DNA from: Acidobacteriota bacterium
GTDB taxonomy: Bacteria > Acidobacteriota > Terriglobia > Versatilivoradales > Versatilivoraceae
Assembly (NCBI GenBank): GCA_009841055.1
Contig: VXMN01000326.1
Location: forward strand, 1 to 32,938
Reading direction: 5' to 3'
Length of the DNA stretch: 32,938 bases
Below the pieces are notes generated by a model, which was not told the DNA's origin, did no database searches, and worked only from the letters and a program-made list of their open reading frames with translations. A program made the position numbers and the translations under genes. How positions within the stretch are numbered: the stretch's first letter is position 1; each line of letters begins with the position of its first letter. Below are positions 19,019-30,355 of this stretch, piece by piece.

Positions 19019-19087
19019 CGGCGACTGCCGAGGCAGGATCCTGCGCGGGATCAGGCCCATTGCCCCCGTCGTTGCGGATGCGTCCGG

Positions 19088-19117
19088 CCCCCCGCCCTGT
19101 CGGGCAGATCATCCGAG
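19088..19117 (+). repeat. Dispersed repeat module 1, copy A
   Basis: This 30-base word contains CCGCCCTGTCGGGCAG followed by ATCATCCGAG. It matches the reverse complement of 24678-24706 at nearly every position. It contains a short self-complementary core, CTGYCGGGCAG. Confidence 0.7.
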
Positions 19118-19293
19118 AGTAAAACAAGAGAAATTCATGGCCTGTCGGGAACAAGACTATTGAACATGGACCATCTGCTCATGCTCAACGTTGAACCGGT
19201 TTCCAGCCAACAGAGATCATGGGATAAATCCTACCCGAGGGCGCGGGCCAGGTTGCCGGGTCGCGGCCCTGCCGATGCGACAGAGCCGTCCCG

Positions 19294-19330
19294 CTTCGTG
19301 TCCCTTCGTGGTCCTTCGTGTAACTTCGTG
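19294..19330 (+). repeat. Dispersed repeat module 2, copy A: four phased CTTCGTG words
   Basis: Four exact CTTCGTG words start at 19294, 19304, 19314 and 19324, a strict 10-base period of about one DNA turn. They are followed by GGAT and a T-rich tail. The same layout occurs inverted at 24568-24604. Confidence 0.8.
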
Positions 19331-19398
19331 GATAGCTCTTTTTCGCTTGTTGCAGTGGAGTTGCCGAATCCCCGGACTTCGCTGCCTCGCCAAACCTG

Positions 19399-22733: not shown

Positions 22734-22850
22734 GCCATTCACGCGACGTGGCAGGCGGATGAAGGCGACCCTTAACCTGGGGCGCCGACACTTCCCGGCG
22801 GGTTCTCCCTTGACCAACCTCTCCAATTGTCCCCGGACCTCTCAGAGGCC

Positions 22851-24527
22851 ATGGATCGAGATCTTGAGTCCATTCAGCAGGCCCGGTCACTGCTCGACAA
22901 GGCACTCCAGGCCCAGAAACACCTGTCTCTATTCTCCCAGGACCAGGTCGATTCCGTAGTCCGACAAATGGCAGAGGCCGGGTTGGGAGCTGCCGAGAAG
23001 CTTGCCCGCATGGCCGTGGAGGAGACCGGCTTCGGCAACGTCGCCGACAAGATCCTCAAGAACAAGTTCGGCTCCGAGTTTGTCCACGAGGCCATCAAGG
23101 ACCTCAGAACGGTCGGCATCATCAGGGAGGACAGAAAAAAAGGAATCCTCGAGATCGCCTCGCCGGTCGGGGTCATTGCCGCGATCATTCCCTCCACCAA
23201 CCCGACTTCCACCACCATCAACAAGGCCCTGATTGCGCTCAAGGGCCGTAACACCATCGTTTTCAGCCCCCACCCCTCGGCTTCGGGCTGCATCCGGGAG
23301 ACCAGCAGAATCCTGTCGGAGGCCGCGGTCGCAGCCGGCGCTCCTGACGGATCGATCGGGTGTCTGTCCCATTCCACGCTCGAGGGAACGCGAGAGCTGA
23401 TGAGCCATCGCAACACCGCCCTGATCCTGGCAACGGGAGGGCATGGTCTGGTCAAGGCCGCCTACAGTGTGGGAAAGCCTGCGTTCGGGGTGGGTCCGGG
23501 CAACGTCCCCGCCTATGTGGAGTCTTCGGCCGACATCCCTCAGGCCATTCAGGACATTTTTACCGGCAAGTGCTTTGACAACGGCACGCTCTGTTCTTCG
23601 GAGCAGGCCATTGTCACCGATGCGGCCATCAAGGATCGCGTGATCGACGAGGTCAAGCACAACGGCGGTTATTTCCTGAACGAACAGGAAATCCAGGCGT
23701 TGGGCCAGGTGGTCGTCACTCCCAGGAGAACGGTGAACCCCAAGATCGTCGGCAAGCCGGCAGCGACCATTGCCGCGCTGGCCGGGATCCGGATTCCGGA
23801 AGGCACCCGGGTCCTGGTAGCCCCGCTCTCCGGCGTCGGTCGGGACTATCCCCTTTCCATGGAAAAGCTCTCTCCGATTCTGGCGTTTTATGTGGAGAAA
23901 GACTGGGAGGCGGCCTGCGACCGATGCATCGAGCTGCTCAACTACGGTGGTTTGGGACACACCCTGGCGATCCATTCCAAAAACGACGAGATCATTCGGC
24001 AATTCGGCCTGCAGAAGCCCGTCTTTCGAATCGTCGTCAATACCCAGGCAGCCCTGGGAGCCGTGGGCTACACCACCCGGCTCTTTCCGAGCATGACTCT
24101 GGGATGCGGAACCCTTGGCGGCAACATCACGTCCGACAATATTTCCCCATTTCACCTGATCAACGTCAAACGGGTGGCCTACAGCCGCACACACGAACTC
24201 GGGGAGGACTCGTCCCAGGCCACCAACGCTCCACAACAGCAAGCAGCCCCCATCGATCGAGGAGAGGTCTCGGCCCTGGTGGATCGCCTGATGGCGGACC
24301 GCCAGCTTGAATTCCAGCGACCGCCCGAACCGGCGCCACCGCCAGCCGAGCCGAAGCCCCCCGAGACGGCCCCGGATCCACCGGAGACGGCCGACTTCGT
24401 TTGTGAGGATGATATCCGGCAGGCAGTCAGGGAAGACCGCAAGATTCATGTCGACGGAAAGTCGATCATCACCCCGGCCGCACGCGATCTCGGGAACCAG
24501 AAAGCCGTTCTGGTCTACCTTGCCTGA
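22851..24527 (+). CDS. CoA-acylating aldehyde dehydrogenase with C-terminal microcompartment-targeting-like tail
   Basis: This enzyme converts an aldehyde, CoA and NAD+ to an acyl-CoA, the signature reaction of metabolosomes. I chose the ATG at 22851 (558 residues), since the track TTG lacks a ribosome site and MDRDLESIQQAR fits the family start. The catalytic Cys248 lies in FDNGTLCSSEQ, closer to AdhE-type acetylating dehydrogenases than to the PduP/EutE wording. Cofactor-side motifs are PVGVIAAIIPSTNPTS and GVGPGNVPAYV. The core ends near residue 455. Beyond it are an amphipathic segment (VSALVDRLMADRQLE), a proline-rich linker and a final module of about 45 residues (DDIRQAVREDRKIHVD, then IITPAARDLG). 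These look like encapsulation and interaction tails. It is paired with the BMC-H gene. Confidence 0.93.
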   Translation: MDRDLESIQQARSLLDKALQAQKHLSLFSQDQVDSVVRQMAEAGLGAAEKLARMAVEETGFGNVADKILKNKFGSEFVHEAIKDLRTVGIIREDRKKGILEIASPVGVIAAIIPSTNPTSTTINKALIALKGRNTIVFSPHPSASGCIRETSRILSEAAVAAGAPDGSIGCLSHSTLEGTRELMSHRNTALILATGGHGLVKAAYSVGKPAFGVGPGNVPAYVESSADIPQAIQDIFTGKCFDNGTLCSSEQAIVTDAAIKDRVIDEVKHNGGYFLNEQEIQALGQVVVTPRRTVNPKIVGKPAATIAALAGIRIPEGTRVLVAPLSGVGRDYPLSMEKLSPILAFYVEKDWEAACDRCIELLNYGGLGHTLAIHSKNDEIIRQFGLQKPVFRIVVNTQAALGAVGYTTRLFPSMTLGCGTLGGNITSDNISPFHLINVKRVAYSRTHELGEDSSQATNAPQQQAAPIDRGEVSALVDRLMADRQLEFQRPPEPAPPPAEPKPPETAPDPPETADFVCEDDIRQAVREDRKIHVDGKSIITPAARDLGNQKAVLVYLA

Positions 24528-24540
24528 AACAAACGCGAGT

Positions 24541-24649
24541 GAACCACAAAGGCCAAAAAAAGAAATCCACGAAGACACACGAAGAACGACGAAGGGCCAC
24601 GAAGAAAATCGGCAAGACGTTTATCCCTATTCGTGTCCATTTGTGGTTC
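24541..24649 (-). repeat. Dispersed repeat module 2, copy B, bounded by 10-base inverted repeats
   Basis: A perfect inverted repeat, GAACCACAAA (24541-24550) and TTTGTGGTTC (24640-24649), encloses this 109-base piece. Inside, read on the plus strand, are CACGAAG words at 24568, 24578 and 24598 and GACGAAG at 24588, again every 10 bases. On the minus strand this is the CTTCGTG array of copy A, including the GGAT and T-rich flank. It sits between two convergent genes and encodes nothing credible. Confidence 0.75.
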
Positions 24650-24677
24650 GTCTTCAAATTCGATCGACAGATTCTTC

Positions 24678-24706
24678 CTCGAATGATCTGCCCGGCAGGG
24701 CGGGGG
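24678..24706 (-). repeat. Dispersed repeat module 1, copy B
   Basis: On the minus strand this reads CCGCCCTGCCGGGCAG then ATCATTCGAG, matching 19088-19117 with only a few differences. Relative to the CTTCGTG array it has the same order and orientation as in copy A, but the spacing is shorter (about 75 bases instead of 175). Confidence 0.7.
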
Positions 24707-24724
24707 CGTCACTTGCCTGAATCA

Positions 24725-30016: not shown

Positions 30017-30355
30017 GCTTTCCTTCCCGCTCAGGCCCGATCGGTGGCCCCGTATCGGAGCCGCCGCCAATCGCCCGAGCCCGAATAATTCAATCAGAAA
30101 ACGCCCGTTGCCGCAATTAAGGGCCAAGCCCGCATTTCTCGCCAGGTCGCTGGTAGCATGAAGAAGGGTAGTCTATCTTTCAGTACCTTGATCGACTCCA
30201 TGTAAAGGGCTTGCAGGTAACAGACGTCGCTGGGCATGCCCTGGCTTGTCCGTTTCCCTTCAGCGCGCCCATGCTCCCTGGTGAGAAATGCCGGCTCGTG
30301 GCCGCCTCTTCGCGTTGCCTTGACTCCGGCGACGTTCTAAAATGCGCCCCGCGTC
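30017..30355. other. Divergent intergenic region between galE and the GT2 gene
   Basis: No credible gene is seen here. It must hold the promoters for both directions. The only good match is the TTGCCT-N17-TAAAAT pair close to the GT2 start. No convincing minus-strand promoter for galE was found. Confidence 0.5.
30315..30343 (+). promoter_or_regulatory. Promoter immediately before the GT2 gene
   Basis: TTGCCT (30315-30320) and TAAAAT (30338-30343) are separated by 17 bases. The -10 matches five of six consensus positions and ends only 12 bases before the ATG at 30356. The mRNA would have a leader of about six bases or none. Confidence 0.5.

Follow-up and report, generated by a model that had tools for sequence, protein, structure and literature searches.

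Short dispersed repeats in one genus of Acidobacteriota as probable non-autonomous members of an IS110-family element

We analysed a 32,938-nucleotide stretch of DNA from an Acidobacteriota bacterium (assembly GCA_009841055.1, contig VXMN01000326.1; this whole stretch is called the window), which carries two copies, A and B, of a dispersed repeat with CTTCGTG words at 10-base steps. Both copies are very probably non-autonomous members of an IS110-family insertion sequence (IS), resembling miniature inverted-repeat transposable elements (MITEs) and presumably inserted with the recombinase and bridge RNA of the full element acting in trans. Their ends and target are also those of an IS110-family IS. 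In IS110 insertion the recombinase is bound to a bridge RNA, two internal loops of which pair with target and donor (PMC11208160, PMC11208158), and as a rule of the group the left end, which holds the bridge RNA, is longer than the right end (PMC11208160). The short element is probably a hitch-hiker of the RNA-guided enzyme of such a transposon, not a protein-binding site. The terminal inverted repeats and target duplication of classical MITEs are both lacking, so we call it MITE-like only.

Copies A and B, their empty sites and their target

The features of the two copies are as follows.

19075..19082, + strand: target word left of copy A, CGGATGCG (consensus CAGRYAAG), from the empty sites and the target logo
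19083..19360, + strand: copy A, the whole probable non-autonomous element, 278 bp, bounded by empty sites in G003, G005 and G001
19083..19117, + strand: left end of copy A, a short lead, a stem word of the CTGCCC and GGGCAG type, and GATCATCCGAG, as in the left end of the family
19294..19330, + strand: CTTCGTG block (cargo) of copy A, four words in 10-bp steps, from the spacing survey
19349..19360, + strand: right-end word of copy A, GTTGCAGTGGAG (family consensus GTTTCAGRYAAG), from the right-end logo of 247 ends
24712..24720, - strand: target word of copy B, TCAGGCAAG, repeated at the right end
24519..24711, - strand: copy B, the whole probable non-autonomous element, 193 bp, with clean empty sites in G003, G005 and G001
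24678..24711, - strand: left end of copy B, with the CTGCCCTGCCGGGCAG stem and GATCATTCGAG
24568..24604, - strand: CTTCGTG block (cargo) of copy B, three exact words
24519..24530, - strand: right end of copy B, GTTTCAGGCAAG (CTTGCCTGAAAC when read on the + strand)

The preliminary description of the window had reported four exact CTTCGTG words at a strict 10-base period behind a second module, both recurring at 24.5-24.7 kb in the same relative order and orientation. The four words do start at 19294, 19304, 19314 and 19324, and the recurrence is copy B, in which order and orientation are indeed those of copy A. CTTCGTG occurs 15 times in the window (4.98 expected; none of 100 shuffles reached 15), and CCGCCCTGYCGGGCAG occurs twice, at 19092-19107 (+) and 24688-24703 (-), with 0.16 expected even when two mismatches are allowed. 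In copy A, 186 bp lie between the two modules.

Sister genomes without the copies define the boundaries (a slash marks the junction). For copy A the empty sites read CGGGTGCG/TCGCCGAG in G003, CGGGTGCG/TCGCCGTATCC in G005 and CAGGTGAG/TTGCCGAATCC in G001, and the filled site reads GGATGCG/TCCGGCC...TTGCAGTGGAG/TTGCCGAATCC, which places the element at 19083-19360. Copy B is absent from the same three genomes; the G003 empty site is TCAGGCAAG/GTAGACC and the filled site TTCAGGCAAG/TGACGCC...GTTTCAGGCAAG/GTAGACC. The right end of copy B, as CTTGCCTGAAAC, gives the open reading frame (ORF) 22827-24527 its last codons and its TGA stop, and the stop word CTTGCCTGA is also present in the G003 empty site, so the ORF was left whole by the insertion.

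At copy A and at two further short members (L035, L147) the word at the left junction agrees with the empty target and that at the right junction does not, which means that the right word is the element's own and that these insertions brought no target duplication beyond the dinucleotide core. The logo of 247 right ends is GTTTCAGRYAAG. In 196 non-tandem copies conservation drops to background straight after the final G, and no constraint was detected on the host side to the right of the insertion in these 196 flanks. The target logo from 118 unique non-tandem host flanks is CAGRYAAG (C58 A50 G62 R76 Y83 A59 A80 G89 percent), with boundary placement giving a slight advantage to the last three positions.

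These junctions also bear on a MITE of the DDE type that duplicates its target, with TCAGGCAAG on both sides of copy B as the duplication. Copy B and L126 do show the same word at both junctions. The junction words nevertheless differ in copy A, L035, L147 and L046, where the left one follows the empty site, and conservation of the right word throughout the genome marks it as part of the element; we consider this explanation extremely improbable. Target duplication was rejected for most junctions on the empty-site comparison and the conserved right-end word.

As a side observation, the junctions of L126, its ortholog L190 and L054 show several clustered transitions relative to the empty site. 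In the comparison of L027 with L194, the copy begins inside the unit at a common TTCATGGC word, as if left-truncated at a microhomology.

A genus-wide family with the ends of an IS110 element

The window's own assembly (G000; 4.32 Mb in 374 contigs) contains 190 occurrences of CTTCGTGNNNCTTCGTG (none for the reversed-pattern control) and 71 of CCCTGYCGGGCAGATCAT with up to two mismatches (one for the control), far beyond the two copies first described. The sequence CTTCGTGNNNCTTCGTGG, holding CTTCGTG pairs, was counted 43-217 times per genome in all seven genomes of the genus, and among 34 other sampled genomes just one gave a single match. The element is confined to one genus of Acidobacteriota and is present there in hundreds of versions. 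Three copies at three loci of G000 are identical over 159 nt, suggesting recent amplification and spread. The records with the right-end word are Acidobacteriota metagenome-assembled genomes (MAGs), one of them Candidatus Versatilivorator; from the record names and general knowledge, we take these organisms to be sponge-associated.

On its left side the element reads CAGRYAAG/YNCCGCCCC (target word before the slash), followed by a short stem of CCGCCC with GGGCGG or CTGCCC with GGGCAG, and then GATCATNCGAG; its right side reads CTTCGTGGATAACTCTTTTT...GTTTCAGRYAAG. Profile searches with both ends covered 2.0 Mb of the complete relative G001 (OX638355.1) and gave 166 left-end and 146 right-end matches, with none in the reversed sequence. 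A left end on the same strand lies within 700 bp upstream of 76 of the 146 right ends (3.4 expected), which upholds the proposed linkage of the two modules: a single dispersed mobile unit has one of them as its left end and the other as the inner portion of its right side. For 31 right ends a left end begins within about 80 bp downstream, as expected from directly abutting tandem copies.

Coding sequence is avoided, a point that the preliminary description had raised, since far fewer ends than expected lie mostly inside crude ORFs (right ends, 37 of 146 against 124.6; left ends, 56 of 166 against 142.1). No preference for convergent gene ends emerged (67 of 310 sites; 263 of 1373 neighbouring gene pairs). 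A replication-strand bias was sought, and orientation showed no clear relation to GC skew in the 2 Mb.

Measured from the left-end anchor to the right end, the copies of G001 fall into classes of about 60 bp in total, about 150 bp and about 200 bp (the CTTCGTG class), mosaics of 300-1000 bp with other repeats inside, and finally a pair of 1.69-kb copies. The latter encode a protein of 464-526 amino acids in which both IS110 domains were detected, PF01548 (DEDD_Tnp_IS110, E 9.5e-23) and PF02371 (Transposase_20, E 8.5e-12); a comparison of the transposase with solved structures by sequence gave no match at E 0.01. Genus-wide, IS110 genes number four in G001 and one in G004, with a fragment in G003; each of the five intact copies lies between a left and a right end of the kind found in the short repeats. 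The left-end model, trained on a set without any IS copy, matches two IS left ends (E 2.4e-18 and 3.9e-15 in 2 Mb). The non-coding left end of the IS, up to the ATG, is about 250 nt long and about 25 nt follow the stop codon.

The about 60-bp class is the left end joined to the right end. Members of about 150 bp can be aligned with the IS at either end (45 nt at 87% and 70 nt at 74%), the picture expected of an internal deletion, and the right end GTTTCAGRYAAG is common to the IS and the short copies. The transposase gene is absent from the short copies and most of them have no space for a bridge RNA. The 60-bp and 150-bp classes, with neither gene nor room for the RNA, would thus depend on a full copy.

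The CTTCGTG block is missing from the 60-bp, 150-bp and autonomous members. Among successive words up to 45 bp apart, 240 are spaced at 10 bp, 60 at 20, 8 at 30 and only 5 at 9 or 11, and the base following the word is often T and G in turn, as expected for a 20-bp unit. The phased words are homologous across copies, representing one inherited pattern and not many independent observations. At L061 (G010, another genus; 1200-1520) CTTCGTG-type 10-bp runs form inverted arms between genes without IS110-type ends. Together with the absence of the block from the other members, this suggests that the block is captured cargo, and the mobile unit is defined by its two ends. A literature search on CTTCGTG gave nothing usable.

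The preliminary description had seen in this phasing a protein bound along one face of the DNA. As a full explanation, this would make each copy a fixed regulatory or nucleoid-protein site kept by selection, which would suit the strict 10-bp phasing and the intergenic placement. Sister genomes, however, have clean empty sites at the orthologous place, the block is missing from other family members and the words are homologous by descent; we regard a fixed site as highly improbable, and a protein-binding array as the point of the element finds no support. The cargo block could still bind a protein.

Guide words and the proposed movement in trans

The left end of the IS carries words of the form AAGRCAAG in two predicted stem-loops. 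At L306-L308 the first guide, AGACAAG, equals the left flank (the target) and the second, AGGCAAG, equals the right end. The guide words of L303 and L304 differ from these and follow their own flanks except for one base each. In L309, a 64%-identical relative, guide 1 and the left flank both read GGATTAG, guide 2 and the right end both AGGTCAG, and at L310, L311, L312, L313 and L315 the match to the right end is 7 of 7 (shuffle p 0.008-0.036 each). Since the right ends in the relatives were located by eye, these matches count as supportive, not as blind tests. Of the two words, the first is likely the target guide and the second the donor guide, and the core is likely AG (CT on the other strand).

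We propose the following course. The autonomous member, of about 1.69 kb, would supply the DEDD transposase and a predicted bridge RNA, presumably transcribed from its 230-250-nt non-coding left end. Guide 1 would pair with the host target left of the insertion, CAGRYAAG, whose final AG is the presumed core (CT when read on the opposite strand), and guide 2 would match the element's own right end. The short members, which retain about 55 nt of this left end together with the right end GTTTCAGRYAAG, may be excised as circles with right end joined to left end; the circles would then be inserted after a CAGRYAAG word, without target duplication, by recombinase and bridge RNA acting in trans. Tandem arrays would arise because an element offers a good target in its own right end.

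Several observations weigh against this proposal. Guide 2 of L303 is one base off its right end, and at L314 the guide test gave only 5 of 7. Within the predicted loop, the target-matching guide is on the 3' side and, in the left-end words of the IS, no guide partner was recognised for the other half-site; the pairing scheme is therefore not a copy of that of IS621. At the right end, the CTTCGTG class and the IS have just a short stretch of 12-16 nt in common. The genus-wide search detected no intact IS110 gene in the window's own genome (G000), G002, G005 or G006, all of which are fragmented MAGs with contigs often ending in repeats. L126 and L054 do not fit the simple insertion rule: L126 and its ortholog L190 carry GGTTAG at both ends while the empty site of the relative is ACCAG, and L054 has AAATAAG on the left with a right end equal to the target of the relative.

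A different enzyme would be involved if the repeat were similar to the repetitive extragenic palindromes (REPs), or a non-autonomous element of the IS200/IS605 type (Y1, HUH), moved as single-stranded DNA by a REP-associated tyrosine transposase (RAYT). The unduplicated target, the short target word repeated at the right end, the small stem near the left end and the RAYT genes in four of the seven genomes would agree with this. However, the inspected RAYTs sit amid their own, different REPs, G002, G004 and G005 carry the element without any Y1_Tnp match, and exactly these ends enclose an IS110 transposase. Copies A and B, as single-stranded DNA, fold no better than shuffles (z 1.5 and 0.35). 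We consider this origin very unlikely; RAYT/Y1 as the mover was rejected on the flanks and the distribution, no Y1 transposase being associated with these ends. For the Y2/IS91/Helitron type, PF04986 matched nowhere in the genus, and control genomes gave no match either. An Rfam search of the window gave no match.

In comparison with the IS110 group as described for IS621 (Durrant et al. 2024, PMC11208160, PMC11208158), the IS110-family element described here has in common the DEDD transposase, the long non-coding left end and short right end, the predicted left-end RNA with two guide-bearing stem-loops, the lack of target duplication, the presumed CT core (AG on the gene strand) and some insertions into REP-like repeats. 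It differs from IS621 in that most of the family consists of copies without a transposase, some as short as 60 bp, the target-matching guide occupies the 3' side of its predicted loop, and constraint is seen in only one target half.

We lean, by a little, to a broader view of the family as a natural trans-acting bridge-RNA system, in which hundreds of minimal donors without transposase or RNA, down to about 60 bp, would be moved by an IS110 recombinase with its bridge RNA and steered to CAGRYAAG words (other copies and REPs included), the genome thereby keeping dispersed ready-made recombination sites. If the short copies move in trans, nature has already carried out, for bridge recombinases, an experiment with minimal donors, in which the 60-bp members would reveal the sufficient end sequences, and the many insertion sites would be a natural catalogue of target tolerance.

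Related elements and other repeats of the genus

Prokaryotic MITEs (for instance Correia, ERIC, and SMN1/SM3A of Sulfolobus) are likewise short, multicopy, intergenic and free of transposase, and carry the ends of an autonomous IS. The element described here differs in having no perfect terminal inverted repeats or target duplication, because IS110 elements have neither, and tools based on inverted repeats would miss such elements (PMC3852290). Many genomes may for the same reason hide similar elements among their unexplained dispersed repeats. Several IS families are known to have MITEs; the open-access full texts searched contained none derived from IS110. QMITE2 of Coxiella burnetii (PMC5896051) is a MITE connected with the IS110/IS1111 group, but IS1111 uses it as an insertion target, and it is no derivative with the ends of IS1111.

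REP/RAYT systems are similar in being high-copy short intergenic repeats of the same genomes, and differ in enzyme (Y1) and ends, the genus having its own separate REPs and RAYTs. We found two RAYT genes in the genus (L069, L114 and L117, L118), each amid its own REP family, of the GCGGCTTCGCCGC type and the GCGGGCGGGACGCCCGCGCTCCCGGG type; REPs of both types were found inside or beside the element. At many places in G001 (e.g., L067) the element repeatedly follows the same REP sequence (TATTCTCAGGTAAG/, ATTGCTAACAAG/). One REP may have been targeted repeatedly there, or REP and element may have spread together.

Two other repeats were observed. A second dispersed element with the ends AGCCCGCATTTCTCACCAGG...CCTGGTGAGAAATGCGGGCT is present in the window at 30125-30311, in G003 (C101, 91700-91956 and 92756-93036) and in G004 (C22); the window copy is missing at the orthologous place in G004. 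A palindrome-ended repeat (L095-L099), missing at the orthologous place in G000 or G001, is about 275 bp long, has the form TGTYCTGTNNCAGAAATA...TATTTCTGNNACRGAACA and lies in G003 (C101) at 68154-68428, 73096-73372 and 47614-47899.
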